Assembly: GCA_017453205.1 (NCBI GenBank)
Contig: JAFTKO010000008.1
Span: 1 to 64,000 of the forward strand
DNA from: Clostridia bacterium
Lineage (GTDB): Bacteria > Bacillota > Clostridia > Oscillospirales > CAG-272
DNA: 64,000 nt
Direction: 5' to 3'
Both the position numbers and the translations under genes were made by a program. Numbering within the stretch: the stretch's first letter is position 1; each line of letters begins with the position of its first letter. Below are positions 1 to 22,886 of this stretch, piece by piece. The notes below the pieces were generated by a model. That model did no database searches. It saw only the letters and a program-made list of their open reading frames with translations, and was not told the origin of the DNA.

Positions 1-2140
1 GGATATCCTCATAAGCCACCAAGCGGTTGCCCTTATGTCCTGCTTTCAGCACCTCGCGGGCATTCTTTTTGTCGTACAGGCGGGTGATCTCACACTTGTC
101 ATCAAGCTCAACGATAAAGAACTCATTTTCAAGTTTCTTTTTGCTGACCTTGACACTTCCAACCGCCTTTTTGGGAGTTACGACCTTCCAACCCTTGGCG
201 GGAATACCGTCCACATAGACCAATTCTCCGTCCACGCGGATATTGCCGCTTGTGACCGCCGAGTGCGGGTTGTAAACCAGTACACCGCCCTTGGTGTCCA
301 CCTTGTCGGCAATCGCTTGCAACAGTGCACTTTCGGTCTTGCTGCCCCGACCGATGATCTCGGCATACTCAATATCACTCACATCGTAAACCTCTTTGAT
401 CGAGGAACCGGGGATCACGTCATGGAATTGGTTGGTCAAAATCGTAAGCCATGCCTTGTTCAGCTCTGCCTGCGGATACTCGGAACCGAAGAAATGCCGA
501 TTGAGCACGGCAAGCTGCTCGATATTGGGGTACAAAAATTCACAAATGCGGTTATTTCTCTTATTCTTTTCGATTGAGGTCAAGCAACCGCGGTGAAGCT
601 CAAAATAGAGCTCACCATCCCATGTGGGAACACGGTCATTGCCCTCGTTGCGGTCAAACAATCGTTTTAAAAAGTCGCCCACAAAACCGTTTTTTGCGGT
701 AACGCATCCGGGCAGCCCGCGCGACAGACGGCGATAGCCCTCCAAATCCAACTCGTTCGGACCTCCGCCGCCATCTCCCTTACCAAAGGGCATCAGCACC
801 TCGTCGGTCAAATTTTTTTGCTGCATACGGTGGAACGAGCCATTGACAAACTTGGGAGTCATACGCGCGCTGTACACCACCATTTTGCGATATTCCTTTT
901 CATCGGGAATCCGCTCTTGCGAGGTTAGAAAATAGCTGTTGATCTCGGTACCGTCGATGCCGCGCCACTTAAAGATATCGTAGGGGAAGCGGTTCTTTTC
1001 GTTCCAACCGAGCTTGGAGGTCACAAAATACTCCACGCCGCTTTTGCGTAAGATCTGCGGCAACGCTGCACTGTAGCCGAACACGTCGGGCTCCCAAAAC
1101 ACCTTGCTTTCCACTCCGAACTCATCGCGGAAGAACTGTTTTCCGTACAACAACTGACGCACAAAGGATTCCCCCGATGGGAGATTACAGTCGGGCTCCA
1201 CCCACATCGCACCTTCGGGCTCCCATCTGCCCTCTTTGATCTTTTCTTTGATCTGTTCGTACAGCTCGGGGGCTTCCTCCTTGGTAAACTGATAGAGTAG
1301 CGGCTGCGATTGCATAAAGATAAACTCTGGGAAAGCTTGCATATTGGTGAGCATATTGGAGAAAGAGCGTTGCACCTTTTCGCGTGTTTGCGCAAAGGTC
1401 CATTTCCAAGCGCAGTCGATGTGCGTATGCCCAACGGTGATGACACTCTTTTCGGTGGTATGACAGTATTTTCCGTAAAACTCGGTTTCGAGATATTCCT
1501 CCGCCGCCTTGAGCGACTCGCGGAAGTCTCCGTTGGGAGCCACACGGAGATCGATCTTATTGGTGGCGGTATTGAGATACTCGAGAATGTCGGCATACTC
1601 CTTGGTCAAGGGATTGAGACAATCCAACTGCTGATACGGCAGGAGAATATCATAATAGACCTTTTCACAAAGTTCGTCGGTTACATACACGGATGCTACG
1701 AATTTGAGATCCTGCGAGAGATAGCCCGCGTAGGCATAGAGGTAAAGTTCATATTCGCATTTGCCGCCAAGCGGAATGCTGATATGGTTGACATCCATGC
1801 CCTGCACCATTTTGCCGTCGACATAGGCAATGAACTGCGGGTTCATTTGATTGTTCCATCCGAGATTTCCTGTCCAAACCTCAAAACGAAGCTTTTGTCC
1901 CTTGACCTCCTCCGGTAACACCAGATGTTTGTAAAACCACGCATGTTGGTCACCCTTGATCTTCCAATCCGGTGCCGTGGTAAAAGGCGCAAACCGAGGA
2001 TCCCTGCAATCGGGCAAGTCGTTGTTTTTCTTAGGCTCGCATTCCATGTATGAAAAGCCGTCGATCGGCATTTTCCATGCCTTGCGGTGACGATCCAAAT
2101 TTTCCAGCGTCACTCTGATCTTATCCTTTAAAAAATCCAC
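1..2140 (-). CDS. Alpha-mannosidase, glycoside hydrolase family 38 (partial)
   Basis: Hydrolyses alpha-linked mannose from oligosaccharides. The frame is open for 713 codons from a GTG at 2140 to the window edge, so the C-terminus (perhaps 300 residues) is missing. GTG is chosen because AAAGGA lies about 9 bases upstream and an in-frame stop lies just beyond. The family signatures are clear: GHTHID (zinc ligands His and Asp) followed by AWKW, and EPDVFGYS, whose Asp is the nucleophile position in GH38. No signal peptide is visible, so the enzyme is probably cytoplasmic and trims imported mannosides. It is the last visible gene of the operon that begins with manA and contains five EEP genes; the gap to the preceding EEP gene is 26 bases. 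Confidence 0.9.
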   Translation of the reverse strand, partial: MDFLKDKIRVTLENLDRHRKAWKMPIDGFSYMECEPKKNNDLPDCRDPRFAPFTTAPDWKIKGDQHAWFYKHLVLPEEVKGQKLRFEVWTGNLGWNNQMNPQFIAYVDGKMVQGMDVNHISIPLGGKCEYELYLYAYAGYLSQDLKFVASVYVTDELCEKVYYDILLPYQQLDCLNPLTKEYADILEYLNTATNKIDLRVAPNGDFRESLKAAEEYLETEFYGKYCHTTEKSVITVGHTHIDCAWKWTFAQTREKVQRSFSNMLTNMQAFPEFIFMQSQPLLYQFTKEEAPELYEQIKEKIKEGRWEPEGAMWVEPDCNLPSGESFVRQLLYGKQFFRDEFGVESKVFWEPDVFGYSAALPQILRKSGVEYFVTSKLGWNEKNRFPYDIFKWRGIDGTEINSYFLTSQERIPDEKEYRKMVVYSARMTPKFVNGSFHRMQQKNLTDEVLMPFGKGDGGGGPNELDLEGYRRLSRGLPGCVTAKNGFVGDFLKRLFDRNEGNDRVPTWDGELYFELHRGCLTSIEKNKRNNRICEFLYPNIEQLAVLNRHFFGSEYPQAELNKAWLTILTNQFHDVIPGSSIKEVYDVSDIEYAEIIGRGSKTESALLQAIADKVDTKGGVLVYNPHSAVTSGNIRVDGELVYVDGIPAKGWKVVTPKKAVGSVKVSKKKLENEFFIVELDDKCEITRLYDKKNAREVLKAGHKGNRLVAYEDI

Positions 2141-3018: not shown

Positions 3019-3039
3019 TGTTTGATCCTTCTTTCTGTG

Positions 3040-3900: not shown

Positions 3901-3939
3901 AAATTATTTACAAAAATCCTTTCATTTTGAGTTCTTGCA

Positions 3940-5963: not shown

Positions 5964-5973
5964 AAGCTTCTCA

Positions 5974-7050: not shown

Positions 7051-7090
7051 AAGAATAAATCTCCTTTATTATAAAATAACAGCCGCTTCA

Positions 7091-8152
7091 TCACGCTTCC
7101 TTGGGAGGAATGCAAACAACAATCTCCATATGTTCTTTACTTGCCAGAGTGAATTGATCCCTCAGACTAGCGGGCATAAAGAAGTAGTCACCCTTTTTCA
7201 AGGTTGCCGTACCGCCCGGATAGCGAACCTCCCCTGTGCCCTCGGTCACCACGTAAATGGCAGGACACTCGGTGTTGGCAATCTCCCCGCCGTTCAGCGT
7301 CAGACGGCGCACCGCAAAGCAAGGCGTGTCATCAAAGGAGATCAGCATTTCGTCACGGACCTTGCCGGTGTCGGAAAGCACCTTCGGGATCTTCCGTCCA
7401 AGCGCAACTGCCTCGTCCCCCGCGACATCGTAATTGAAGCAATCCAACGCGATGTCGGGATTTAAGCCGAGATACATCTGCTCGGGCGTCAGCTTAATAT
7501 CGCCGCACCAATGCTCGGGCTGAATGGTAAAGTCGGTAGGCTCTTGAGTTTCAAGCAGGAAACATCCCGCACCGATGGCATGGATCATCTTGGCACCGAT
7601 GAAGAACACATCGCCCTTTTTGACGGGAATACGGTTGAGCAGTCCCGACATAGCCGCGGGATCGGTCTCGCTTGCGGCAACGGCTCTTTCAAACTCGGCT
7701 TTGCTGATCTTGTCCTTAAAACCAAAGTAAATGCATGCGTTCTCGCGGGTATCGAGGATCACCCAAGACTCCGCTTTTCCATGCTCGGAGCCGAGATGTT
7801 TTCTCGAATATGCCTTATCGGGGTGGCACTGCACGGGCAAACGGATGGCGCTGTCCAACATTTTGACCAGCACGCCGAGCTCGGTTCTGTTCCCCAGCAT
7901 TTCCTTGGGGTACTCGGCAAGCAGCTTGTCAAAGGGAATGTCGGTGCCCCTAACCATTGAAACGCCCTCGTTGGGATCGCGGTTGTCGCCATTGAGCGCG
8001 TGGACAGAGGAACACACCCACTCCTCGGGATAGAGGCTGTCCTCGGCGGGATCCCCAAAGAAGTCGGCAAACAGCTTGCCGCCGGTGTAGACGCGCCAAA
8101 CGCGGTTTCTTTCAAAGAAAACAGGCTGATTCAGAATGTTTTTGATGTTCAT
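7091..8152 (-). CDS. manA: Mannose-6-phosphate isomerase, class I
   Basis: Interconverts mannose 6-phosphate and fructose 6-phosphate, feeding mannose into glycolysis, or making mannose 6-phosphate for glycan synthesis. 353 residues, typical of the short bacterial type I enzyme. Recognisable features are the early KLFADFFG segment, the zinc-site VQCHPD region with a downstream GKAESW, and a C-terminal cupin half (KKGDYFFMPASL). It is the first gene of a minus-strand operon continuing into five EEP genes and a GH38 alpha-mannosidase, which ties the cluster to mannose. A ROK regulator is divergent across a 167-base gap. AAAGGAAAC precedes the ATG. Confidence 0.92.
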   Translation of the reverse strand: MNIKNILNQPVFFERNRVWRVYTGGKLFADFFGDPAEDSLYPEEWVCSSVHALNGDNRDPNEGVSMVRGTDIPFDKLLAEYPKEMLGNRTELGVLVKMLDSAIRLPVQCHPDKAYSRKHLGSEHGKAESWVILDTRENACIYFGFKDKISKAEFERAVAASETDPAAMSGLLNRIPVKKGDVFFIGAKMIHAIGAGCFLLETQEPTDFTIQPEHWCGDIKLTPEQMYLGLNPDIALDCFNYDVAGDEAVALGRKIPKVLSDTGKVRDEMLISFDDTPCFAVRRLTLNGGEIANTECPAIYVVTEGTGEVRYPGGTATLKKGDYFFMPASLRDQFTLASKEHMEIVVCIPPKEA

Positions 8153-8319
8153 AACGGTGTTTCCTTTCGGTAATTGATTTTTATAGAACCATATCCCCTA
8201 TATTGGGAACATTTTTTTAAAATTTGAACAAAAGTATTTACAAATTCGTTTTTTATGATATAATATAAACTAAAGTAGCAAAAAAAGTAAATTTTGGTCA
8301 AAAGAGGTATTCCGCAAAC
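8153..8319. promoter_or_regulatory. Divergent control region between manA operon and ROK regulator
   Basis: This 167-base AT-rich spacer must hold both divergent promoters. The plus-strand promoter is listed separately. On the manA side, an imperfect inverted repeat (CCATAT ... ATATTGG, about 8192-8210) is a candidate operator for the neighbouring ROK protein. No convincing minus-strand -35/-10 pair could be picked. Confidence 0.45.
8237..8264 (+). promoter_or_regulatory. Sigma-A type promoter of the ROK regulator
   Basis: TTTACA, 16-base spacer, TATAAT, with a TGA extension before the -10 box. It lies 55 bases upstream of the start at 8320. Confidence 0.65.
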
Positions 8320-9471
8320 ATGAAAAACTCCCCCCACAATGTAAGAACCATCAAAAATGACAATCGGGCGTTAATTTTCAACTATATTCGCAGAAGGCCC
8401 GTGTCCCGTGCCGACATTTCCAAGCGGTCGAACATGTCCAAATCGGCGGTCACCATGATCACCAACGATCTGATCAAAGAAGGACAGATCATTGAAATCG
8501 GAGCAACCGCGTCCTCACACGGCAGAAAATCGATCTTATTGGACATTGTTGCAAACTACCGCTATGCCGCGGGCATCGCTTTGCACCGAAAATATATTTA
8601 TATTTGCATCACCGACTTAAAATCCAACATCTTGGCATACTCCAATCACAAAATTTCTCAGTGGAACGATCCGTACAAAGCATTGGATTTTGCCTATGAG
8701 GAAATTTTGAGATTTTTGGATCAGCTGCAGATCCCCATGGAAAAATGCCTTGGCATCGGCGTTAGTGCACCGGGACCTTTGGATTACGTCACGGGAAAAA
8801 TCTTAAACCCTCCGGATTTTGAATTTTTCCATCACGTAACCGTTGGAGATTATTTGCGTAAGCGTTCGGGGCTCCCCGTAACGGTGGACAACAACGCGGT
8901 TTTGCTCACCATGCAGCAATACATCAGCGACAGCAGTCACAATTTTAAAAACTATATGTTTGTCGTCATTTCCGACGGTATCGGCTCCGCGATCATGACC
9001 AACGGCAACATTTACCGCGGTTTTGGCGGCTTTGCGGGAGAGTTGGGACACACCAGCATCCACGCAAACGGCAGTCGTTGCTCCTGCGGGAACACGGGAT
9101 GCCTGGAAAAATACATCAACCTAAAAAACCTACAGGAAAAATTCGGCTTTTCCTCTTATCAAAAGATGGTGGACGACGCCTATATGGGTGACAAGGAGTC
9201 CATCTCGATTTTAGAGTACATTGCCGACGAGTTCTCCTGTGCCCTTGCCAACATGGTAAATATGTTTGATCTTGACGGTGTCATCATTTACGGTCAACTT
9301 TCCTACCGCAGTGAAAAACTGGCAAAGATGTTGCAGGAGCGCATCAATTCCCGTTCGGTCATTACACGTACCCACCCGGTATATGTGTATTTTTCAAAAA
9401 TGCAACCCGATGAGGCAAGCGCCTCGGTTTGCTCCGCCATTATCAATCGGTACTTTGAGCAAAAGCTTTAA
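8320..9471 (+). CDS. ROK family transcriptional regulator (NagC/XylR type)
   Basis: A 383-residue regulator. The N-terminal winged helix-turn-helix (about residues 15-70, SRADISKRSNMSKSAV) is followed by a ROK sugar-binding domain with the ATPase-like segment GIGVSAPGPLD, GGFAGELGHTSI, and the zinc motif CSCGNTGCLE. Proteins of this class bind a sugar or sugar phosphate and release DNA. It is divergent to the manA-EEP-mannosidase operon, so regulation of that operon by a mannose-derived ligand is the simplest inference. An AAAGAGG site lies about 12 bases before the ATG. A hairpin just after the stop ends the transcript. Confidence 0.88.
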   Translation: MKNSPHNVRTIKNDNRALIFNYIRRRPVSRADISKRSNMSKSAVTMITNDLIKEGQIIEIGATASSHGRKSILLDIVANYRYAAGIALHRKYIYICITDLKSNILAYSNHKISQWNDPYKALDFAYEEILRFLDQLQIPMEKCLGIGVSAPGPLDYVTGKILNPPDFEFFHHVTVGDYLRKRSGLPVTVDNNAVLLTMQQYISDSSHNFKNYMFVVISDGIGSAIMTNGNIYRGFGGFAGELGHTSIHANGSRCSCGNTGCLEKYINLKNLQEKFGFSSYQKMVDDAYMGDKESISILEYIADEFSCALANMVNMFDLDGVIIYGQLSYRSEKLAKMLQERINSRSVITRTHPVYVYFSKMQPDEASASVCSAIINRYFEQKL

Positions 9472-11095: not shown

Positions 11096-11132
11096 AATAG
11101 GTTCCCTCTCTCTGAAAAATCGGTTTTGAGAA

Positions 11133-11169
11133 CGGAGCAACCGCAAATATTTCAATTACGGTTGCTCCG
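11133..11169 (-). other. Intercistronic hairpin between the two repeat-protein genes
   Basis: Perfect 11-base inverted repeat CGGAGCAACCG with a 15-base loop in the 85-base gap. In the direction of transcription it is followed by TTCTC and not a U-run, so it could attenuate transcription or stabilise the upstream message. Confidence 0.5.
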
Positions 11170-11180
11170 CAATTTCAAAG

Positions 11181-13910
11181 TCAGTCCTCTTTCTTTTTGC
11201 GAAGCACAACGGGAGCAATTGCCGCCATTGCGAGCAATCCGATCGATGCAACACCGATCACACTGCCGCATCCGCTTTCCTCTTCGGTCGTAGTTGCGGG
11301 AGCGTTGGTGGTGGGCTCGGTTACGGGTTCGGTCGTGGGCTCGGTCTCATTATCCTTGTCGTCGCCGCTTGCGGGAGGATTGGTGGTTCCACCCTGTTGA
11401 CCGCCTTGTTGACCGCCTTGATCGTCCTCTTCTTCCTCGGGCATCGGCTCGGTCTCGGTATCAGCCGCAAGGTCAATGGGATATGCGCTTGCATCGTCAC
11501 CCGTGTTGAGCACAAATGCACTGCCCAGCTTGGTCACCATTTCGGCGGAAGCAAATTCAGCCGCGGTGACAACCGTACCGCTGGTATTTTCACTACAACC
11601 GTCAAGCGGTGCCTCCAATTCATCTACACCGTCAATGATATTGTCATCGATCAAAACATAAGTGGTATAGGTCTCGTCGGTGTAACGGTTGAGCAGATTT
11701 TCCACCGAATAGCAGTTCTTTACATACTGATCAATGTTCATGGTTCTGGAGGAAATTCCGCCGACATACACGCACGTGCTCTTTACAATGATGGTACCTG
11801 CGTTAAAGCAGTTTTCGATAAGGTATGCGTCACCCTCTTCACAAATACCGATACCGCAAGCCTTGGAGTCATTGTTCGTCGCATTCCCTTCTCTGAAGGA
11901 AATGCAGGTACCGTAGTTACCGCAATTCTTAATTTTGTTGCCGGCACTGTTGGAAGGAGAAATACCTGCTGCACGGCTCTGTCTTGCAATAATGGTTGCA
12001 AAGTTGAGGCAAGAATAGATCTCACCGGTAGAACGGTTTCTTGCCACAATACCGCCGACATGGTAGTTGGAATCTACCTTACCAAAGGAAGCGCAGTAGC
12101 GAATGATACCGTTGTTGTCGATCACAAAGATAGATGCGCGGTCGCCCTTACCGGTAACATCAGCTTCACAAGAAACGTGCGCAATGGTACCGTTGTTGGT
12201 CTCAATCATACCGGCGTTGGTACCGGAGCTGACCATCTTGGCGTTGGTAAAGTTCACGTTCCAAATCTGACCTTCTGCATTTTTTGCAAAACCGATACCG
12301 CCTGTGGTATTGATACCGTCGATGGTAAGGTTCTTTACGATAGAGTAGATATCCAACATATCAAACATGGGTTTGGTGGACGGTTGGGTAAGGGTAATGG
12401 TGTGCCCGTTACCGTCAAGCACGCCTGCAAACCACTCAACCTGTTCCCAAGCAGAGGAAACTGTAATATCGGCGGTCAGAACGAGCTTTTCCTCGCAGTA
12501 GTCATCTGCGATCTTAAGCAGATCTGCCTCGGTAGCGATCTCGATATAATCGGAGTAGTCGGTGTCGGAAGCCATACCAGCTTCACCAAGGTAACCGACG
12601 TTACCGGTGTATGCGGGAAGTTCGGGCTCTGCGAGTGCGATGGGATAAGTAGCATCACCGGTGTAAACAAATGCGGAGCCGAGCTTTTCCGCCATTGCCG
12701 CAGAAGCAAATTCAGCCGCGGTCACAATGGTACCGTTGGAGCCCAATCTTTGAGCATCGTCATTGTCCTTGGTTGTGGTGTCATCGCTTACCACCTCATA
12801 GGTAGTAAAGGTAGTATCCTTATAACGGTTGATCAAACCGGTAACGCCATAGCAGTTGATGACGTTGGTATCGGCTACGGTGGGAGCAGCCACAACGATG
12901 TTACCTACATATTTGTTGATGGCGCTGGTAATGAGAGTACCTGCGTTTGCGCAGTTCTCGATGGTATACTTGGATTTTTCAACTACACCAATACCCGCCA
13001 CCTTTGCGTCGGTGTTGGTGAGGTTGTTCTTTCTGTAAGCCGTCAAGGTACCGTAGTTGATGCAGTTTTTGATTACGGTATTATCGGTGCTACCTTCGCC
13101 TGCACTGATACCGCCAACGCGGGAATCATGACCGGTAACATCACCGTAGTTGATACAGTTCTCGATGGTCTTCTTGTTAGCCGAAGCAATACCGGCGGCA
13201 CGCATGGAGCCTGCGGTAATCTCGCCGTAGTTGATACAGTAACGAACCGTACCGCTGTTCTCCGTGGTGATACCGGCGGCATTCTCGCTACCGGCATAAA
13301 CAGTACCCGAGAAAGTGCAGTACTCGATTACAGCATTGGCTTTATTGATATCCACAATACCTGCCGCACGCTTACTGGGAGCCGAGATTGCACCCTCGGT
13401 TACCGTAACACCCGTCACGGTATTGTAATTGTCACCGATGAGGGCAGCATCACTGGTGTTGTTGCCGTTGTTGGTAAGGGTAAGACCGTTTACGGTGATG
13501 TTGGAAATAACGCCATAGCTTTTGTAAACCAAACCATAAGCAGCCTTGTTAACCTCTACTTTCATGCCGACGATGACCAAATTTTTAACTGTGGCATTTT
13601 TGTTGCTTTCAGCATAAGAACCGTTGTTGTTGGTTCCGCCGATGGTATCAAACCAAGGAGCGGTTGCGGTCACGGCACTTGCATCGATCTTATGACCCTT
13701 GCCGTCCAGTGTACCGTTAAATGCGCCCAAGTTAAGGGCAGCTGTCAGTGTAATGTCTGCTGTGAGGACGTAATTGCCGTCGGTGTTGGCAATTGCGGCA
13801 AGCTCAGCCTCGGTATCGATCTCAGTCGCGGCAGTGTCCGCAGTGGGAACGATGACAAACAAACTTGCAACCATTGCAAGAACCAATAATACGGATAACA
13901 GTTTTTTCAT
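11181..13910 (-). CDS. Secreted two-module repeat protein with Gly-Cys C-terminal anchor (909 aa)
   Basis: Signal peptide (MKKLLSVLLVLAMVASLF) followed by two homologous modules, about residues 25-435 and 450-815. Each opens with a TEAEL/TEADLL...YVLTADIT segment and LDGxGH, and continues with repeated INYG/CINYGE/NAGT strings typical of right-handed beta-helix surface proteins. The C-terminal linker is Gly/Gln, then Glu/Pro/Thr rich, and ends GCGSVIG, a hydrophobic helix and RKKKED. The second module is the version carried alone by the 502-residue downstream gene. Function is unknown; adhesion or glycan capture is the usual inference. Large open frames on the other strand here are shadows caused by codon bias. 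Confidence 0.75.
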   Translation of the reverse strand: MKKLLSVLLVLAMVASLFVIVPTADTAATEIDTEAELAAIANTDGNYVLTADITLTAALNLGAFNGTLDGKGHKIDASAVTATAPWFDTIGGTNNNGSYAESNKNATVKNLVIVGMKVEVNKAAYGLVYKSYGVISNITVNGLTLTNNGNNTSDAALIGDNYNTVTGVTVTEGAISAPSKRAAGIVDINKANAVIEYCTFSGTVYAGSENAAGITTENSGTVRYCINYGEITAGSMRAAGIASANKKTIENCINYGDVTGHDSRVGGISAGEGSTDNTVIKNCINYGTLTAYRKNNLTNTDAKVAGIGVVEKSKYTIENCANAGTLITSAINKYVGNIVVAAPTVADTNVINCYGVTGLINRYKDTTFTTYEVVSDDTTTKDNDDAQRLGSNGTIVTAAEFASAAMAEKLGSAFVYTGDATYPIALAEPELPAYTGNVGYLGEAGMASDTDYSDYIEIATEADLLKIADDYCEEKLVLTADITVSSAWEQVEWFAGVLDGNGHTITLTQPSTKPMFDMLDIYSIVKNLTIDGINTTGGIGFAKNAEGQIWNVNFTNAKMVSSGTNAGMIETNNGTIAHVSCEADVTGKGDRASIFVIDNNGIIRYCASFGKVDSNYHVGGIVARNRSTGEIYSCLNFATIIARQSRAAGISPSNSAGNKIKNCGNYGTCISFREGNATNNDSKACGIGICEEGDAYLIENCFNAGTIIVKSTCVYVGGISSRTMNIDQYVKNCYSVENLLNRYTDETYTTYVLIDDNIIDGVDELEAPLDGCSENTSGTVVTAAEFASAEMVTKLGSAFVLNTGDDASAYPIDLAADTETEPMPEEEEDDQGGQQGGQQGGTTNPPASGDDKDNETEPTTEPVTEPTTNAPATTTEEESGCGSVIGVASIGLLAMAAIAPVVLRKKKED

Positions 13911-13987: not shown

Positions 13988-15532
13988 CTATTCTTCTGTT
14001 GTGAGACCGCTCTGATTGGTCAGTGCAGTCAGCAGTTTTTGCAGCTTTGCATTCCAAGAGTTTTTGTACTTGGAGGTGCTGGAGGGTGCATCATCCTTAT
14101 TAATAAACGTGCGATAGAAGTTGTGAATGTTGTTTAGCTCTTTTCCCCATGCAAATGCAAAGTCAACGTATACGCTGTCGCGAATGAGGTCAACCATTTT
14201 TGCAGACTCCGGGTCACGGGAGTAGCGGTACTTGAGCGCCTCATCATAGTATGCCGTGGTTACCGCCTCGGACATGGAAGCCATTGCCTCCAACGTTGCA
14301 GCCGCCGCTGCGATTTGAGAGCTTTGAGAATAAATGCCGTACAGAGAGCAACCGTCATGAATGCCCGCATAGTATGTACCCTGTGCCTCGTTGAGCATGG
14401 GAGAAGGAATGATACCGTAGTTTTCCATTTCGGTCAAGAATACCTCTGCCAACAAGATCTTGTCATGCGTAAAGAGCACGTTTCCTTGAGAGAAGAGTCC
14501 CATACTGTTGGTGGAGTGTTTGCTGGGTGCCATATAAGTACCCTTGTTGTTATTATAAAGAATATTATACATCTTTGTTGCAAACTCCAATCCCGCGGGA
14601 TAGGTTTTTACATCCGACAGGACAATACTGATTTCCCCTGCCTCATTGGTGACGCTGAACTTGACACCGGCACCGATCGACATACCGTCCAACGGGTCGA
14701 TGTTCTCGATGACAAAGCCGAGGGTATCGGTCTCATCCCAAACATCGTCGGCAGATACCGCCACCTGCTCGATCATGGTTGCCATCACGTCCAGATTCCA
14801 TCCCTTGTTCTCTACCAACGTGTAGATATCGCCGTAGGTATCCTTGAGTGCATCATTATACATATCAAGGTTTACAAAGGTGCAGTACATACCGCCAAGG
14901 TAACGGAGGGAAAGGTCACCTGTCACCCAATACATTGCATTGTTGTAGGAAAGCGCTTCGCTGTAATTCTTAGACCAATAGTCCTTGCTGATATCCACAT
15001 AATCCGCGCTATGCTGACTCATGGTATTGAAGTTGAGAACCAGCCCCTCGCTTGCCATCGCAATGTCCCATGCTTGATAACCGCAGATGACATCGTACTC
15101 GGAAGTACCCGAACGCAGATCGGTGATCAGCGCACTACGTATAACTGCATCATTGAGCGCATAGGGCGAAATGATGACGCCAAGGCGATCCTCTACGTCG
15201 AGATTGCGGTAGTAGACCTGCTCGTCAACCGTGTTGGTACCCGCATCACCAATCGCGTAGCCGTCAATGGCGATCGAGCGCTCCGCAAAGGTTCCGCCCA
15301 AGCCGGAGCTGACCTCACCGATGAGGAACTTGATCTCCTCATTTTCAAACTTTAAGTTTGAGGGGAGATCGTCGCGGTAACCGTTGTCGGTCTCATCGGT
15401 CACACCGCTGTTGTCAACTGTCGTTCCCTCTTCCTTGCCCTTGTCCTTGTCACAGGCCGCAAAGCAAGCCAACGCGCCAAGCAAAAGAGCAAAGGTCAAA
15501 AGAAGCAAGAGTAAGCGTTTGATTTTGTTCAT
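13988..15532 (-). CDS. Extracellular solute-binding lipoprotein (ABC importer substrate-binding protein)
   Basis: A 514-residue lipoprotein. The start at 15532 (MNKIKRLLLLLL) is chosen over an upstream ATG because it opens the signal peptide and has AGGAGG nearby; the lipobox is FAAC near residue 25. The body shows the domain pattern of large family-1 sugar-binding proteins of gut Clostridia (SEYDVICGYQAW, GNVLFTHDKILLAEV, APSKHSTNSMG). No permease or ATPase gene is adjacent, so it is an orphan binding protein or partners with a transporter elsewhere. It is the first gene of the minus-strand set with the two repeat proteins and has its own promoter. Confidence 0.8.
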   Translation of the reverse strand: MNKIKRLLLLLLTFALLLGALACFAACDKDKGKEEGTTVDNSGVTDETDNGYRDDLPSNLKFENEEIKFLIGEVSSGLGGTFAERSIAIDGYAIGDAGTNTVDEQVYYRNLDVEDRLGVIISPYALNDAVIRSALITDLRSGTSEYDVICGYQAWDIAMASEGLVLNFNTMSQHSADYVDISKDYWSKNYSEALSYNNAMYWVTGDLSLRYLGGMYCTFVNLDMYNDALKDTYGDIYTLVENKGWNLDVMATMIEQVAVSADDVWDETDTLGFVIENIDPLDGMSIGAGVKFSVTNEAGEISIVLSDVKTYPAGLEFATKMYNILYNNNKGTYMAPSKHSTNSMGLFSQGNVLFTHDKILLAEVFLTEMENYGIIPSPMLNEAQGTYYAGIHDGCSLYGIYSQSSQIAAAAATLEAMASMSEAVTTAYYDEALKYRYSRDPESAKMVDLIRDSVYVDFAFAWGKELNNIHNFYRTFINKDDAPSSTSKYKNSWNAKLQKLLTALTNQSGLTTEE

Positions 15533-15654
15533 AAAATCCTCCTTTAAATAAAAAGTTTTTTGGGTTGAACGTTCCTCGGGAATGCGGTTCGTTTCTCTCT
15601 TTTCCACCTTCTTCCATCACAAATTGTTCAAAGCTAAAACCAAGTCACACCATT

Positions 15655-15836: not shown

Positions 15837-16571
15837 ATGCCGCAAAATCAAATTAAATACTTTCAAAAGGGCTTTAACTTCTCACAGGACGGCCCCGGCA
15901 ACCGTTTGGTCTACCATTTGTACGGCTGCAACTTCCGCTGTCCATGGTGCGCCAACCCCGAGTGCTTTGCCGCAGACACCAAGGTCACGGCACAAACGGT
16001 GGAAGAGGTCGCCAACGAGATCCTGCGTTCCCGCCCCATGTTCTTTTCGGGCGGCGGCGTCACCTTTACCGGCGGTGAGCCGACCTTGCAATTCGAGGCA
16101 CTAAAGGAGCTCCTTATTATAATTAAGGAACAAAACATCCATACCGCAATCGAATGCAACGCCTCCCACCCGCGCCTTTGCGAGTTGTTCCCTTACATCG
16201 ACCACTTAATGATGGATCTCAAACACCCCTCGGACGCGGCACACAAGGCGATCGTGGGCATGGGCAACCAAACCGTGCTCGACAACATTGCCGCCGCGGC
16301 ATCCACGCGACAGCTTGCCTTGCGTATTCCACTCGTGAATGGCTACAACACCGACGACGCGTGTATCGATGGCTTTATCGGCTTTCTTTCGACGCTCCCT
16401 CAAAACCCGCTTTTGACCGTGGAGCTTATCTCCTACCACGAATACGGCAAGGTCAAATGGCAAAAGCACGGCATGGAATACACCGTGCAAAACGGATTTG
16501 TTCCGCCCGCGCGCCTTGCCGAGATCCGCGAGCGTTTCCGACAAGCGGGTATTTCCACCATTCAAACTTAA
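15837..16571 (+). CDS. Glycyl radical enzyme activating enzyme (radical SAM)
   Basis: Uses a [4Fe-4S] cluster and S-adenosylmethionine to make the glycyl radical on the enzyme encoded next. 244 residues. The cluster motif CxxxCxxC is at Cys31, Cys35 and Cys38 (GCNFRCPWC), and GGGVTFTGGEP is the SAM-binding GGE region. The length matches the minimal pyruvate formate-lyase activase. The extra ferredoxin-like double-cluster insert found in most activases of glycyl radical dehydratases and decarboxylases is absent. That is notable because the partner looks like an eliminase. The gap to the partner gene is 38 bases. Confidence 0.93.
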   Translation: MPQNQIKYFQKGFNFSQDGPGNRLVYHLYGCNFRCPWCANPECFAADTKVTAQTVEEVANEILRSRPMFFSGGGVTFTGGEPTLQFEALKELLIIIKEQNIHTAIECNASHPRLCELFPYIDHLMMDLKHPSDAAHKAIVGMGNQTVLDNIAAAASTRQLALRIPLVNGYNTDDACIDGFIGFLSTLPQNPLLTVELISYHEYGKVKWQKHGMEYTVQNGFVPPARLAEIRERFRQAGISTIQT

Positions 16572-16609
16572 AAAACATCATATTATTCTTAACAGAAAGG
16601 TGAAACAGT

Positions 16610-18988
16610 ATGAAACCCAAAAATCAACACATTATCGATCTTGCAAAAGCACTCTTCCGCGAGGAAAGATCGATCACCAAGCTGACCGGTTGGTTCCAAA
16701 TCCGCGAGACCGCCGCAAAGAATGAAGGCAAATATGCCGACCTGTCGTTGGAGCGCAGAACTGCGGCACTGCTCCACGACGAGCTGAAGGAGCTCCCGCT
16801 TTCGATCTCCGACAATGCCGTGTTCGCGGGTACACAGCGCGACGCCTTTGCACGCACCTATGCGCTCATCAATCCCTCCTTCCGCGTGGAGACCTTTAGC
16901 GGCTACTGCGATCCTACCGCCGTGTACGGTGACATCGATCCCGACGAGGAATTTACCAAAGAGAGAATTGAAAAGCTCCGTCAATACACCCTCCAAACGC
17001 CCTACGTCAGCCAACTGAATGCCATGTACAAAAAGGCGGAGAGCTACACGGGCGAGGTCATCTACTTTGTGGAGCAGGTCACTGGACACTTGATTCCCGA
17101 GTTTGGCACCGCTCTGCAATACGGCACCAAGGAGCTGATCGCCACCGCGAAAGCCAAGGCGGAAACCGAGACCGATGCCGAAAAGAAAGACAATCTGCTT
17201 GCCTTTGCCGATGCGCTCGCTTGCGCCGAGCTGTTGGCGGGACGCTACCGCGAGATCGCACTTGCCAAAGAGGCAGCCGCAATCGCCGCAAAGGATGACG
17301 AAAAAGCCGCGCGCTTTGGCAAGCTTGCAAACGCACTTGCCCGCGTACCGATGTACGGCGCACGCGATATGTTTGAGGCAATTCAAAGCTTTATGCTCCT
17401 GTGGGAGATCATGTGCATCGAGCAGGCACCCAATCCCTACGCCTTCTCCGTCGGTAACGCCGACCGCATTTTTGAGCCCTACCGCCACGGTATGACGCGT
17501 GAGGACGCCGCGGCTTTGTTCTGCCACTTCTTGGTATTCTTCAATGTTGCCGACCGTAGCTGGGCGATCTCGCAAAACCTGATCGTCGGCGGCAGAGACT
17601 ACGACGGCAACGACTTGACCAACCCGTCCTCCTACTCGTTGCTTGACGCTTACTTTGAGATGAATCTGCCTCAGCCGATCCTCTCGGTCAAGCTCCACAA
17701 GAACACCCCCGACAAGCTGTACGAGGAGCTGGGACGTTTCTTCTTCTCGCCCGGCGTACTTACCCCCTCGCTCTTCAACGACGACTCGCTCTTCCCCATT
17801 CTCGAGGCAAAGGGCGTGGACAAAGAGGACCTCGAAACCTACAGTGTGGCAGGCTGTCAAGAGCCTTTGATCCGCGGCAAAGACAACGCCAATACCACCA
17901 ACAGCTGGCTCAACCTCGGCAAGATCCTGGAGCTCACCATCAGCGGCGGCGTTTCTACCATCACCGGCAAAAAGCTTTGCGATTTTGAAAAGCTCCCGCC
18001 CGAAGAGCTCCTTCCCCGGTTGCGTGAGAAATTCTATGAGAATGTCAAGAGCTCGGTCGCACTGATGGCAGACTCGGCAAACGGCGCTTCCCGCGCGCTC
18101 TCCAACCTGCGCGTTCCTTTCCTTTCCTCCTTTATGGGCGGTCTGGATTACGCATACGACACCCGCGACACCGAGCATCAGGGAACCAAATACAACGGCT
18201 CGGGCTGTCTCATTCACGGTCTTTCGATCGTTGCCGACTCCTTTATCGCCGTCGACCACCTGCTCAAGGAGCGTCCTCAAGATGCGGAACGCTTGGTAAA
18301 AGCGCTTGCCAATGACTTTGAGGGCGATGATGAACTGCGTGAATATCTGCTCTCCTGCCCCAAATTCGGCAACAACATTCCCGAGGTCGACAACGAGGCG
18401 GCAGAAATCGCAAACAAGATCTCGGATCTCATCAACAGCACCAAAAACTACCTCAGCAACGATTTCCGCGCCGACTGGTCAAGCCCCACAACGCATTTGA
18501 CCTACGGCTACTGGGTGGGCGCGCTCCCGTCCGGCAGACCCGCGCGTGACATGATGAACTACGGCGTAGACCCGCTGTACGGCTCTGCGGAGAGCGGTCT
18601 CGGCATGCGTATGCTTTCCAACATGGCTCTGCCTTTCTGCAAGATGTGCGGCGGTTATGCCTCCCACCTCGGTATTGATCCCAAGTACTTCCCCGCCGAC
18701 AGCTTTGAGGGCAAGGGACTGCAGTTCAAGGAAAGAGTCATCGAGCCGCTGTTCTTCAATCCCGCGGCGGACGGCATCCAACCTTTCTACCTCTATGTCA
18801 ACGTCACCACGCCCGAGACGCTCCGTAAGCTTCTCAAAAATCCGAAGAAGTACGCGCCCAGCGGCGTTTACATCGTCCGTATCCACGGTACCTTTGTCAA
18901 CTTCCTTGACCTTTCTCCCGACGTACAGCAGGATATTATTCGCCGTCTTGACCTCGCATCCACCGCAAACATCGGAGGCAACGAATGA
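16610..18988 (+). CDS. Glycyl radical enzyme, PFL-like eliminase of unknown substrate
   Basis: A 792-residue glycyl radical enzyme. The thiyl-radical Cys is Cys416 in AGCQEP. Glu418, two residues later, matches the catalytic base kept in the diol and amine lyase (eliminase) branch, whereas pyruvate formate-lyase has two adjacent Cys. The glycyl radical site is Gly760 in the unusual context RIHGTF (the normal form is RVxGY/F), followed by FVNFLDLSPDVQQDII, which fits the family tail. I infer a radical dehydratase or lyase acting on a sugar, polyol or related compound, since a carbohydrate kinase is translationally coupled downstream (ATGA overlap at 18985). It was not matched to any known subtype. 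An N-terminal alpha-helical PFL domain is present throughout. Confidence 0.88.
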   Translation: MKPKNQHIIDLAKALFREERSITKLTGWFQIRETAAKNEGKYADLSLERRTAALLHDELKELPLSISDNAVFAGTQRDAFARTYALINPSFRVETFSGYCDPTAVYGDIDPDEEFTKERIEKLRQYTLQTPYVSQLNAMYKKAESYTGEVIYFVEQVTGHLIPEFGTALQYGTKELIATAKAKAETETDAEKKDNLLAFADALACAELLAGRYREIALAKEAAAIAAKDDEKAARFGKLANALARVPMYGARDMFEAIQSFMLLWEIMCIEQAPNPYAFSVGNADRIFEPYRHGMTREDAAALFCHFLVFFNVADRSWAISQNLIVGGRDYDGNDLTNPSSYSLLDAYFEMNLPQPILSVKLHKNTPDKLYEELGRFFFSPGVLTPSLFNDDSLFPILEAKGVDKEDLETYSVAGCQEPLIRGKDNANTTNSWLNLGKILELTISGGVSTITGKKLCDFEKLPPEELLPRLREKFYENVKSSVALMADSANGASRALSNLRVPFLSSFMGGLDYAYDTRDTEHQGTKYNGSGCLIHGLSIVADSFIAVDHLLKERPQDAERLVKALANDFEGDDELREYLLSCPKFGNNIPEVDNEAAEIANKISDLINSTKNYLSNDFRADWSSPTTHLTYGYWVGALPSGRPARDMMNYGVDPLYGSAESGLGMRMLSNMALPFCKMCGGYASHLGIDPKYFPADSFEGKGLQFKERVIEPLFFNPAADGIQPFYLYVNVTTPETLRKLLKNPKKYAPSGVYIVRIHGTFVNFLDLSPDVQQDIIRRLDLASTANIGGNE

Positions 18989-20292
18989 GCCGCTATACTC
19001 TCGGAGTCGACATCGGAACCACCAGCATTTGCGCCTTGGCGCTTGACTGTGACAGCGGAAAGACACTGCACGCACTCAACCGCGCCAACACCTCGTCCAT
19101 TGCATCGGAGGACAGCTTTGCGAGAATGCAAAACACCGACGTGATTTTGGAGACCGCATATGCGCTGATTGCCGAGCTGGAAGAAAAGCTCGGCCCCCCC
19201 GCCGCCATCGGTGTCACGGGACAGATGCACGGCATCGTCTATTTGGATGCAGACGGCAACGCGGTCAGCCCGCTTTACACTTGGCAGGACGCGCGCGGAG
19301 CCCAAGAAAAGGAAAACGGCGAAACCTACGTCGAATATATGCGCCGTATCACGGGCTACCCCGTCTCGGCAGGCTACGGCTTGGCAACCCATTTTTACCA
19401 GCACTGCAACGGTGCAGTCCCCGCAAACGCGGTCAAGCTTTGCACCGTGCACGACTTTTTGGCGATGAAATTGGCAAACCGTACCTCCCCCGTCGTACAT
19501 GCGTCGGACGCGGCAAGCCTTGGTCTTTATGACTTGAAAAACGATTGTTTTGACCTCTCGGCAATGGGAGCTTTGGGCATGTCCGCGTCGATCCTCCCCG
19601 AGGTCACGACAGGCTCCGAATCGATCGGATATTACAAAGAGAACATCCCCGTCTATCCCGCAATCGGCGACAATCAAGCAAGCTTTCTCGGAAGCGCGGG
19701 CGAGGAGGAAGGCAATCTTCTGGTCAATATCGGTACGGGTAGCCAAGTATCGGTCATCGGCAAGCTCGGTGACACGGTTGCCGGCATCGAGTGCCGCCCG
19801 TTCTTGAACGGAAAGCATCTGTTGGTCGGCAGCTCGCTCTGCGGCGGACGTGCTTACGCCATTCTCGAAAAATTCTTCCGCGCGGTAGCAAACATGTGCG
19901 GAGCCGACATCCAATCGGCATATCCCTTTATGGACAAGTGGATCGCGGAGAACACCCCCGAGCAATCGCTCAACGTCTCCACGCTCTTTGACGGCACCCG
20001 CGAGGATCCAACCATCCGCGGCAGTATCTCGGGAATTTCGATCACCAATCTCGAGCCCGGTGCAATGATGGACGGTTTTATGCGCGGCATTGCCCAAGAA
20101 CTGCACGCGCTCTACCAAAACATGAGCGGTCTGCTTGATACCGAAGTCAAGACCATGATCGGCTCCGGCAACGGATTGCGCGTCAATCCCGCGCTTTGCA
20201 AGGTCATGGAGCATACCTTCGGCATGGCTTTGACGCTTTCCGACAGCAAGGAAGAGGCTGCCCTCGGCGCAGCGAAATTTGCAAACAGATAA
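18985..20292 (+). CDS. FGGY-family carbohydrate kinase, sedoheptulokinase-like
   Basis: ATP-dependent sugar kinase of 435 residues. The N-terminal phosphate loop is GVDIGTTSICAL; GVTGQMHGIVYLD and TWQDARGAQ resemble sedoheptulokinase (SHPK); the C-terminal adenosine region contains MIGSGNGLRVNP. The start codon overlaps the stop of the glycyl radical enzyme gene (ATGA), so the two proteins are made together. The kinase probably phosphorylates the substrate or product of that enzyme, a ketose or polyol. It is slightly shorter than typical FGGY kinases (about 480-500), like SHPK-type members. A terminator follows at once. Confidence 0.85.
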   Translation: MSRYTLGVDIGTTSICALALDCDSGKTLHALNRANTSSIASEDSFARMQNTDVILETAYALIAELEEKLGPPAAIGVTGQMHGIVYLDADGNAVSPLYTWQDARGAQEKENGETYVEYMRRITGYPVSAGYGLATHFYQHCNGAVPANAVKLCTVHDFLAMKLANRTSPVVHASDAASLGLYDLKNDCFDLSAMGALGMSASILPEVTTGSESIGYYKENIPVYPAIGDNQASFLGSAGEEEGNLLVNIGTGSQVSVIGKLGDTVAGIECRPFLNGKHLLVGSSLCGGRAYAILEKFFRAVANMCGADIQSAYPFMDKWIAENTPEQSLNVSTLFDGTREDPTIRGSISGISITNLEPGAMMDGFMRGIAQELHALYQNMSGLLDTEVKTMIGSGNGLRVNPALCKVMEHTFGMALTLSDSKEEAALGAAKFANR

Positions 20293-20349: not shown

Positions 20350-21777
20350 ATGAAGCTTTCAAAGTTTTTCAAAGGCATTTGCCTTGCACTTTCTCTGCTC
20401 ATGCTATTTTCGGCGTGTCAAACAGCATCCGAGGACGATGAAACCAACTCTACGCAAGGCACCGATGCAAAAACGCCCGAAACCGAACCTCAAACCGAAC
20501 CCGTAACTAAGGAAACCCTTGACCTTACGCAAATCCCCGCCTACACCGAGTATGCAGCAACCGCCATGCAAAAGCTGTACAACGTGTTTTGGGACGACGA
20601 GGACAACTGTTTTATCCGCACTGCCGAGGGGCAACCCGAGCCCAACGCCCCCGCCATTTGGGAACAGGGGCAATCGATCTTCGCGCTGATCTCCTACTAT
20701 GAGGCTACCCAGGACGCCGATGCCCTGCAAAAGCTGAATCAACAGTGGGCGTATTTGACCTCCGACGCATACAGCGAACGCATTCTGAAAGGAAAGCAAA
20801 AGCTTGGAACGGGTTGCTATTACGCACAGGATGACGCGGCATGGGGTTCGCTGATCTTTATCGGCATCTACCGCAACACGGGAAATACCGAGGCAATGGA
20901 ATATGCGCACGACCTCATCGTCAACTCTTACAACCACTGGGGGACAGGTGAGGAAACAAAATATCAAGGCACGTCCATCAAGAGCTTAACCGACGGCATG
21001 TATTACACAGATAATTTGGAGGAAGGCGAGTCCCCCTACAAATCGATCTATGCCGCGGCAATGGCAGTCGCCGCATTGGAATACTGCTGTCTCAAAAACC
21101 CCACCGATCCCACCGCGGTCGATCTCTACCGGCCCACGCTCAACCTGTTCCACTGGTTGGAGGACAATATGTGCCGCAACAAGACCAAGACCTACAAGGA
21201 CTATGACAGCAACGGCTCCCTAACGGTCAGTTACGTTGATTATCTTTATTATGTCGACTACGGCAGAAACGGAGAAAACGGTCCCATGGGGGCAAGAAAC
21301 CCGAGCAATATCGCGGTCAACTCCAGCACTACCGGACTGTTTGGCAACATGGCAATGGCATCCTGCGCGGGATTGCTGTACAAGATTACAAACGACACCA
21401 AATACAGTGACATCGCCGTGCGCACGGTCAAAGCCATTAGCAAGTATGAGACGCACAGCGGAACCCAAACCTACATCAACGACCGCGACCAAGGAACCAA
21501 CGCGGCAATGACGGGATATTTTGTCAAATACGCCCTCTCGTTGGACGGTGTGCGTCTGAGTGACAAACAGGTTCTCCTTGACACCGCCAAGATCATTGCA
21601 ACCAAGGGTGCGGTTACGGGAACCGACTATTATTACACCGTGTGGGACGAAGCCCCCGCCTCACATACCGTTTACTATCCCAATAACAGCCAAGTGTACG
21701 CCTACACCTGTCAGCCCCGTATGGCGACCTGTGTGCATATGATCACCGCGGCACTGCTGTTGCTTTCCATGGAATAA
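20350..21777 (+). CDS. GH76-like lipoprotein, putative alpha-mannan hydrolase
   Basis: A 475-residue lipoprotein. Leader with lipobox FSAC (about Cys21), a Thr/Glu/Pro linker to about residue 55, then an all-helical (alpha/alpha) barrel. DDAAWGSLIFIGIYRNTGN, YAHDLI, and recurring aromatic-rich helices resemble GH76 endo-alpha-1,6-mannanases, where a DDxxW pair is catalytic. If right, it works outside the cell on mannan backbones and connects with the GH38/manA cluster at 1-8152. The match is by motif only, and other (alpha/alpha)6 barrel families could give a similar pattern. It has its own ribosome site and may be read from the preceding operon through the terminator. Confidence 0.55.
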   Translation: MKLSKFFKGICLALSLLMLFSACQTASEDDETNSTQGTDAKTPETEPQTEPVTKETLDLTQIPAYTEYAATAMQKLYNVFWDDEDNCFIRTAEGQPEPNAPAIWEQGQSIFALISYYEATQDADALQKLNQQWAYLTSDAYSERILKGKQKLGTGCYYAQDDAAWGSLIFIGIYRNTGNTEAMEYAHDLIVNSYNHWGTGEETKYQGTSIKSLTDGMYYTDNLEEGESPYKSIYAAAMAVAALEYCCLKNPTDPTAVDLYRPTLNLFHWLEDNMCRNKTKTYKDYDSNGSLTVSYVDYLYYVDYGRNGENGPMGARNPSNIAVNSSTTGLFGNMAMASCAGLLYKITNDTKYSDIAVRTVKAISKYETHSGTQTYINDRDQGTNAAMTGYFVKYALSLDGVRLSDKQVLLDTAKIIATKGAVTGTDYYYTVWDEAPASHTVYYPNNSQVYAYTCQPRMATCVHMITAALLLLSME

Positions 21778-21968: not shown

Positions 21969-22886
21969 TCACTCGCCGTCACCGATTTGGATTTGGGCAA
22001 TGACCGCGTTGTGGTCGGAAATATATCCGTCACCGTTCGCCGCCTTGTAGGGGCTGAGATTGGTGGAGGTATGGATCATATCGTAACTGACTACCGTTAC
22101 GGCATCATTGACCAAAATGTAGTCGATACGGTGACCGTCTATCCGATACGACGGATTGGTAGGATCTACATAATTGTAGCTGTAACCCGTGTTGTAATCG
22201 ACGTATGGGCTGTCTGCCTCTACGCAAGCATCTTTCAAATCCGCTGTCAGCGTTGCATAGGTCTTTGTCGTAGACTCGGCATTCATGTCCCCCACCAAGA
22301 TGACGGGGCAAGTGCTGTCCTTACCGCATGCACTCAGAATATCGGCAATTTCGTTGACGATCACAGCCGCTTGATAGTTGGTGACATCATCCGCGGTGGC
22401 AGAGTCAAGTCCATGATACGCGGCAAAGCTTGTGAGATTATCACTTGTTGCCGCCGTTAGATGCGTGTCCATAAACAGGAAATAATCATCGGTTCCCGTC
22501 ACTTGTAGCAACGCCCAAGAACAAACACGGTCGGCGCTGATGCCCTCGGTTTGGGTAGAGATCGTGGGCGCACCGTTTGCCAAATAAAACGTCCCGTTGT
22601 TAATGAGGGTGTATTGATCGGTGCGATAAAAAATGTAGCCACCCTCACCGTGTGTGGTATTTGATTTTCCGACATAGCTGAACTCATTCAGCTCCTCGTC
22701 AAGGGCAGAAAGCCACGCAGCGGTGCATTCCTGCGCGCCGAAAACGTCAATTTCCTCGCCGCGTATCATTGCCGCAATGCCGGGCAAACGGTTGGCAATG
22801 GTCGCATCCACGGTAGCGGTGCTCCCCGCGGGCAGATTTTTAATGGTCTGCCCGTCGGAGTTTGTACCGTGAAGATTGAGAGACAT
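21969..22886 (-). CDS. EEP family protein (copy 6), leaderless and in frame with the upstream gene
   Basis: A 305-residue EEP domain with AQE, MDTHLTAAT, VGDMNAES, YISDHNAVIA, so catalytic residues are intact. The first ATG (22886) falls inside the conserved first strand: the codons before it read TLVNV, matching the INVMSFN of copies 4 and 5. They are in frame with the 823-residue protein upstream and are separated from its last codon only by TAG at 22905-22907. The AGAGGA purine run is about 14 bases before the ATG, which is long. Either this is a separate but badly initiated gene, or the C-terminal domain of a longer secreted protein split by a nonsense codon. Without the fusion it has no signal peptide. 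Confidence 0.75.
   Translation of the reverse strand: MSLNLHGTNSDGQTIKNLPAGSTATVDATIANRLPGIAAMIRGEEIDVFGAQECTAAWLSALDEELNEFSYVGKSNTTHGEGGYIFYRTDQYTLINNGTFYLANGAPTISTQTEGISADRVCSWALLQVTGTDDYFLFMDTHLTAATSDNLTSFAAYHGLDSATADDVTNYQAAVIVNEIADILSACGKDSTCPVILVGDMNAESTTKTYATLTADLKDACVEADSPYVDYNTGYSYNYVDPTNPSYRIDGHRIDYILVNDAVTVVSYDMIHTSTNLSPYKAANGDGYISDHNAVIAQIQIGDGE

Follow-up and report, generated by a model that had tools for sequence, protein, structure and literature searches.

What do the bacteria that carry a divergent glycyl radical enzyme (GRE) gene at positions 16610..18988 of contig JAFTKO010000008.1 deoxygenate before phosphorylation? The gene lies in the first 64,000 nucleotides of this contig (Clostridia bacterium, GenBank assembly GCA_017453205.1), the stretch that we analysed and call the window; its source genome is a bin of 2.29 Mb in 44 contigs that is 73% complete. 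Characterised groups of these oxygen-sensitive enzymes have revealed abundant anaerobic reactions (choline, taurine, hydroxyproline, anhydroglucitol). Here, we find that the enzyme represents a GRE clade that is real, conserved and unassigned, tied to a fixed kinase partner and to an isomerase-like partner that had gone unrecognised. The module may serve anaerobic carbohydrate catabolism, with radical C–O elimination on an unphosphorylated hexose-type polyol yielding a deoxy-ketose for the kinase, a reading that we favour at slightly less than an even chance.

The module comprises three genes on the forward strand. An activase gene (15837..16571; 244 aa; Pfam Radical_SAM, 1.2e-20) is followed by the GRE gene (792 aa; pyruvate formate-lyase (PFL)-like domain PF02901, 1.2e-95) and by the gene of an FGGY-family ketose kinase (18985..20292; 435 aa; PF00370, 3.4e-27). 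All three open reading frames (ORFs) are open at these coordinates, and the kinase ATG (18985) overlaps the TGA stop of the GRE gene (18986–18988) as ATGA. The coordinates, this overlap, Cys416-Gln-Glu418 and Gly760 within the motif RIHGTF are all exactly as given in a first-pass annotation made from the sequence alone.

We searched genome samples drawn from the family, order and class of the source organism with a family profile and found the GRE clade in 29 genomes: 8 of 395 in the family-level sample, 10 of 394 in the order-level sample (two already in the family set) and 14 of 391 in the class-level sample (one already known). The other 15 of the 29 genomes listed for the class sample held background GREs of at most 241.5 bits or a fragment, the family-like stretch of 107 residues in G1254, which was kept out of the counts. 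Among 398 genomes sampled across the phylum, the window's own genome was the sole match at 1e-150. A scan of GTDB contigs, which is suited to close relatives and was the means by which phyla beyond the window's own were reached, gave six loci, of which L009 is a contig of genome G028 and five come from further genomes, bringing the total to 34; all 34 are assigned to Clostridia. L-numbers denote individual loci and G-numbers genomes. Partner and motif counts refer to these 34 distinct loci, with L023 left out as a duplicate of L009. L010, in which the GRE is split across two frames in the assembly, was kept out of the GRE alignments and trees, L087 (cut) out of the RIHGTF count and the trees, L088 (partial) out of the GRE trees and residue counts, and L089 (partial) out of the count of clade-only residues.

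Activase, GRE and kinase keep the same order in all uncut loci. The activase lies upstream of the GRE in all 32 loci whose contig reaches that far, and the kinase lies downstream on the same strand in all 33 loci with a continuing contig (L010 is cut), which bears out the coupling of kinase and GRE proposed in the first-pass annotation. The two genes adjoin directly in 26 loci and are separated by one or two genes in L012, L040, L042, L043, L078, L080 and L081. Between the activase of L010 and the remainder of its split GRE sits the first piece of that gene; a straight translation of L010:7848-10378 contains 17 stops, reflecting a frameshift or an assembly error. The activase is of the minimal type, that of the PFL-activating enzyme, as had been noted: it has a single CxxxCxxC motif (CNFRCPWC), and, judged from the Cys pattern, none of the 32 cluster activases has a ferredoxin-type Cys run behind this motif. 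In L042 (6025-6858) and L043 (5972-6805), the same operon ends with a further radical SAM protein of 277 aa and 11 Cys.

The residues expected of a radical eliminase are conserved throughout the clade. The enzyme carries the PF02901 domain of the GRE superfamily, and its Cys416 and Gly760 align with the corresponding Cys and Gly of 16/16 reference GREs. Cys416 would carry the thiyl radical and Glu418 would be the catalytic glutamate (Cys416-Gln417-Glu418, codons 17855..17863), and Gly760 (codon 18887..18889, both on the forward strand) the predicted glycyl radical site. Cys416, Glu418 and Gly760 are invariant in 31/31 aligned members and His160 in the 30 members reaching that position; among the 16 references, the same columns hold Cys in 16, Glu in 15, Gly in 16 and His in 15. 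The motif GCQEP is kept in 34/34 loci, with Glu two residues after Cys and without the second adjacent Cys of formate-lyases, in line with the eliminase signature that the first-pass annotation had read from it. RIHGTF is kept in all 33 loci reaching the C-terminus, whereas in all 16 references Ala precedes the radical Gly and Tyr, then Ser or Thr, follow it. A second, unrelated GRE of L013 that fell into the same cluster has neither motif. At E<=0.001, the window GRE gives no match to Pfam Gly_radical (PF01228), although its glycyl loop aligns; two other GREs of the same genome do match this model.

Around these residues, the clade departs from the references. It lacks a loop of about 10 residues ahead of Trp318, has three extra residues in front of the glycyl loop, and keeps 95 residues invariant (30 rows) that none of the 16 references has at those positions, among them Glu155, Gln156, Trp318, Gln417, Thr430, Asp622 and His759. 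Judged by alignment, the catalytic residues match those of an eliminase, in a predicted pocket unlike those compared.

We then asked whether the enzyme belongs to a named group. It is 58–83% identical to other clade members and 21–26% identical to the 16 reference GREs, YbiW and PflD included. On TIGR01774, the window GRE scores 214 bits against a cut-off of 678; of ten reference GREs, nine score 698–1412 and one (L071) 625, under the cut-off. Its scores on full-length NCBIfam GRE equivalogs are at most 168 bits against cut-offs of 994–1150 (choline, hydroxyproline, HpsG and HpfG equivalogs: 125, 142, 168 and 133 bits versus 1050, 1100, 1000 and 1000). In a tree of 54 GREs, one branch splits off the 31 clade members (SH-aLRT 100, stem 3.24). 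Several long branches of this tree are unsafe and were dropped from a second, careful tree, built from 13 references and from 16 of the 31 clade rows. It repeats the split at 100/100 support, with a bootstrap that is not fully settled; here, the clade stem is about 4.7 changes per column versus at most 1.8 for the references' own end branches. Membership in a named group was thus rejected by equivalog scores, structure-profile alignment and trees. Neither the trees nor the scores cluster the enzyme with a characterised group, the outcome that the first-pass annotation had named as its own refutation, and its earlier description as uncharacterised holds for all named groups tested. A literature search of open-licence papers found no published account of the clade or of a matching pathway.

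Two known systems serve for comparison. The best solved relative is the B12-independent glycerol dehydratase 1r8w (258 bits, family profile). With the glycerol and diol dehydratases (1r8w, TIGR01774), the clade has in common the PFL-like domain, C-x-E, an equivalent of His160 and the glycyl loop, and the window GRE is about 25% identical to glycerol-dehydratase-like references; unlike them, the clade has GCQE in place of GCVE, a minimal activase and an FGGY kinase partner. The glycerol dehydratase residues Asp447 and His281 align with Thr430 and with residue 277 of the window GRE. The closest functional precedent is E. coli YbiW/PflD, likewise probable C–O eliminases feeding a deoxyketose phosphate. 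The fsaA gene lies beside ybiW in E. coli, one activase gene (ybiY) away, and in L078 a gene for a TAL_FSA aldolase lies between GRE and kinase. The window GRE is 20.8% identical to YbiW and 23.7% to PflD, and the clade has a dedicated kinase, unlike YbiW/PflD; pflD sits among phosphotransferase system (PTS) genes, whereas 17 of 22 clade carriers gave no match to PTS enzyme I. A review (PMC12441222), citing Ma et al., describes YbiW/PflD as forming 1-deoxyfructose-6-phosphate from anhydrohexitol 6-phosphates.

The kinase constrains the likely product. It shares the FGGY_N (96 bits, cut-off 28.8) and FGGY_C (30.9 bits, cut-off 27) domains with FGGY kinases such as xylulokinase and glycerol kinase, and differs from its nearest NCBIfam model, xylulokinase, in scoring 120 bits against a cut-off of 380 and in having a relative fused to a glycoside hydrolase family 32 (GH32) domain. 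Sedoheptulokinase counts among the FGGY kinases. The first-pass description of the kinase as sedoheptulokinase-like stands as far as the FGGY family is concerned; the libraries searched gave no match to a model or structure of a sedoheptulokinase, and the relatives point to a fructose-like ketohexose. In nine class-sample genomes outside the list of clade GRE matches we found kinase relatives, seven at 380–485 bits and two lower. One ORF at L142:8862-11978 encodes a GH32 fructosidase joined to the kinase (GH32N 1.1e-52, FGGY_N 3.5e-15) and is preceded by two further GH32 genes, the nearer of which (6443-8896) is itself fused to an SGNH esterase. In L139 and L140, the kinase adjoins a gene 58–59% like the cluster DUF2961 gene, with an SGNH-esterase-like gene close by; the DUF2961 domain, which we take to be of the GH172 type, was confirmed for the cluster gene of L081. 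In a kinase tree, L139 and L140 group with the GRE-linked L028 (support 99), and the placement of L142 is not settled. L143 has a more distant relative beside transketolase halves, and the neighbours in the kinase-only loci L136–L138 are uninformative. Because GH32 enzymes release fructose, a fructose-like ketohexose is our best guess for the kinase substrate and a likely one, with sedoheptulose also possible.

A further partner is a phosphomannose-isomerase-like cupin enzyme (7091..8152, reverse strand), which, together with the regulators and an α-mannosidase link described below, adds to the first-pass account. This family occurs in 23/34 GRE loci; in 19 the gene belongs to the same-strand run of GRE and kinase, and in four it lies between the two. 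Across 118 class genomes, all four matches of at least 470 bits come from GRE carriers; the other 12 reach at most 234. The protein belongs to the same cupin family as class I mannose-6-phosphate isomerase (TIGR00218, 1qwr), from which it differs in scoring 72 bits on the ManA model TIGR00218 (cut-off 116) and in having Gln for Arg. QxHPD is kept in 21/23 and HAIG in 23/23 cluster members, and the Arg of SDATYR in the B. subtilis isomerase 1qwr, presumably catalytic, is Gln in 23/23 (TDFTIQPE, as in the window, or TDFTVQPE). A plain mannose-6-phosphate isomerase link was rejected on the missed cut-off and the replaced Arg. Copies elsewhere in two carriers (L144, L151) also have Gln, and eight relatives away from the cluster (L124–L131) retain Arg; Ser stands there in L152 and L153, which derive from two GRE carriers, and Gly in L132, and three gave no pattern match.

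Computation establishes which genes are present, how they associate, which residues are conserved and that the clade stands apart from the tested groups; its radical chemistry we infer by analogy to characterised GREs. The activase, a radical SAM enzyme, would generate the glycyl radical on Gly760; the radical would move to Cys416, which would abstract hydrogen from a carbinol carbon of an unphosphorylated substrate of the hexose-sized polyol type, most likely a hexitol or 1,5-anhydrohexitol. With Glu418 and His160 acting as base and acid, the neighbouring C–O bond would break, giving a deoxy-ketose (most likely a 1-deoxy-2-ketohexose) and water or a ring-opened alcohol. The FGGY kinase would then phosphorylate the fructose-like ketose. 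The isomerase-like cupin enzyme would either take the following step or handle a companion sugar of the mannose type, and cleavage of the product by an aldolase would give triose phosphate plus a C3 fragment. We place the kinase step after the GRE because most of the tested carriers show no PTS that would phosphorylate on uptake: in the 22 of 29 carriers searched, PTS enzyme I was not found in 17 and was found in 5. For most carriers it therefore makes sense that the sugar enters unphosphorylated and then meets a dedicated kinase. The sugar or polyol context suggested by the first-pass annotation is borne out by neighbouring glycosidases and isomerases. The specific identity of substrate and product is a weak inference, and we hold a 1-deoxyketohexose to be less likely than not.

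Several observations weigh against this proposal. TAL_FSA was found in only 11/22 carriers (9/17 good genomes), so a 1-deoxyketose-6-phosphate route could be general only if a different aldolase took part, and the FSA-dependent route was rejected as a general one. The Thr430 column holds Asp in 8/16 references, PflD and glycerol-dehydratase-like enzymes among them, and Thr in its place would imply that substrate binding differs; at position 277, His281 in glycerol dehydratase, the 31 members divide into 16 with Tyr and 15 with Phe. In neither tree does the clade stand as sister to YbiW and PflD or nest with them. An AlphaFold model of the GRE (6 sequences) had a mean predicted local distance difference test score of 50, too poor for use. 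The kinase occurs without a clade GRE in 9 of 18 kinase-positive genomes, GRE-linked kinases form more than one clade in the kinase tree, and the GH32 fusion may indicate plain fructose, which is not a normal product of GRE elimination. The isomerase-like gene is missing from 11/34 loci: two of these carriers encode it at another site in the genome, in four the sole match is a distant relative, and five give none (1e-40). In addition, the Arg-type relatives L128 and L130 come from GRE carriers. No transporter gene common to the loci was seen, and 6/29 carriers gave no match to GH38.

TAL_FSA being found in half of the carriers tested makes the 1-deoxyketose one option among others, and the release of an intact sugar from a glycosyl-polyol becomes a serious rival. 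The GRE would then cleave a mannosyl- or fructosyl-polyol by taking hydrogen from the polyol part; the departing mannose or fructose would be isomerised by the isomerase-like enzyme or, in L089, by the lyxose isomerase, and the kinase would yield fructose-6-phosphate. Such a scheme would account for the GH38 α-mannosidases near the GRE, one of which (2..2140, reverse strand, cut by the contig end) lies in the same-strand run as the isomerase-like gene in the window. GH38 occurs within 5 kb of the GRE in 3/29 carriers (expected 0.35, Poisson 0.0055) and within 16 kb in 6/29 (expected 1.12, Poisson 0.0011), where two of the six represent one genus and the distances were picked after data inspection. 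(GH38, FSA and PTS counts cover 29, 22 and 22 carrier genomes, respectively, and do not include L010–L014.) The scheme would also explain the D-lyxose isomerase, aldose epimerase and PfkB kinase that take the place of the isomerase-like gene in L089, the GH32–kinase fusion and a dispensable TAL_FSA, since no special aldolase is needed. The carriers without GH38 and the five without an isomerase-like match speak against it, as does the fact that no GRE is known to release sugar from a glycosyl-polyol; we consider it unlikely, if the strongest of the competing schemes.

Somewhat less probable is a reversed order, in which the GRE receives a sugar already phosphorylated after the kinase and the isomerase-like enzyme have acted, in the manner reported for YbiW/PflD with anhydrohexitol 6-phosphates (PMC12441222). 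Gene order does not fix reaction order, but the glycosidase genes found with kinase relatives would be expected to yield free ketoses, a ketose phosphate has no obvious need for a GRE, and the clade is far from YbiW/PflD at the identities given above. Less probable again is a GRE substrate that is not a sugar, for instance a hydroxylated amine or acid, with the isomerase-like gene and mannosidases forming a general sugar locus. The 11 loci lacking the isomerase-like gene and the varying glycosidase types would fit this, but a carbohydrate-family kinase in 33/33 uncut loci, the same-strand runs in 19 loci, the four loci with the isomerase-like gene between GRE and kinase and the restriction of strong isomerase-like matches to GRE carriers among 118 genomes do not. 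We regard it as very improbable that one of the characterised groups (glycerol, diol, choline, hydroxyproline, sulfopropanediol or anhydrohexitol-phosphate enzymes) includes the enzyme as a divergent member: glycerol dehydratase is its best structure match, but the equivalog scores, the separate clade and the differences at the His281 and Asp447 positions argue otherwise.

Elimination on an unphosphorylated polyol thus remains our preferred, if tentative, reading, and further genes surround its module. A ROK-family protein with a helix-turn-helix domain (8320..9471, forward; NagC/Mlc-like) is a probable regulator whose ortholog group recurs in 14/34 loci; the ROK-family genes of L042 and L043 lie more than 7 kb off and are possibly sugar kinases. 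A divergent AraC-type gene accompanies 9 of 34 loci, and glycosidase types differ between loci. Divergent from the activase lies an apparent secreted lipoprotein gene (13988..15607, reverse; no Pfam match), perhaps sugar-binding, whose ortholog group c6 is found in 6 loci, one a duplicate. Another apparent secreted lipoprotein follows the kinase (20350..21777, forward) with a weak cellobiose 2-epimerase match (1.5e-4); it occurs only in the window and L009/L023, and its link to the pathway is unsure. Six copies of one family (group c7) occupy 2167-7050 and 21969-22886, several with lipoprotein-like starts and five between the isomerase-like gene and GH38; from its motif, we take the family to resemble the endonuclease/exonuclease/phosphatase fold. 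Large, apparently secreted repeat proteins span 9587-13910, where long antisense ORFs (e.g. 11397-13889) are likely due to chance. No RNA family or riboswitch was found near the operon, with one tRNA in the window, and a 22-base pattern upstream of the activase, searched in 153 loci, matched three times, each time in a copy of the window's own region.

The genome gives ten PF02901 matches, two of which fall in a single gene, and so encodes nine PFL-like GREs on contigs 5, 7, 14, 22, 26, 42 and 43, several of them divergent with short frames (about 660–730 aa); because of this number, the organism appears to rely on radical chemistry. A second GRE operon (L030:4467-13023; contig 42, about 70466-79022) contains, in order, an FGGY kinase, a 672 aa GRE, a DeoC-type aldolase, an iron alcohol dehydrogenase, a 713 aa GRE and an activase with ferredoxin clusters, next to a divergent GntR regulator. 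This order suggests conversion of a polyol via a deoxysugar and its phosphate to an aldehyde and triose phosphate, e.g. via deoxyribose-5-phosphate. This GRE/kinase/aldolase/reductase pattern within the same organism supports the reaction class proposed for the window rather than any one substrate. A different GRE of 734–736 aa with its activase was seen in L013:3106-7158, L145:9792-14735 and L146:1256-7018. It adjoins a GH88 gene in L013, as well as a cupin-like gene (below cut-off), an isomerase-like gene and, in L146, a xylose-isomerase-like TIM barrel; it thus represents a second association of a GRE with an isomerase-like gene.

The clade is far from the 13 references of the careful tree, yet tied to a small and fixed set of partners, of which the Arg-to-Gln isomerase-like enzyme and the GH32–kinase fusion offer additional handles on the substrate. 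It is conceivable, at lower confidence than our preferred reading, that the new GRE clade, its own kinase and a repurposed Arg-less isomerase-like enzyme let PTS-poor Clostridia ferment hexose-type polyols in unphosphorylated form, or glycosyl-polyols, along an unrecognised radical route, with elimination replacing polyol dehydrogenases and serving as an electron sink. Several carriers probably come from animal guts. If true, the module would add a sugar-handling route to anaerobic fermentation, probably that of rumen and hindgut.

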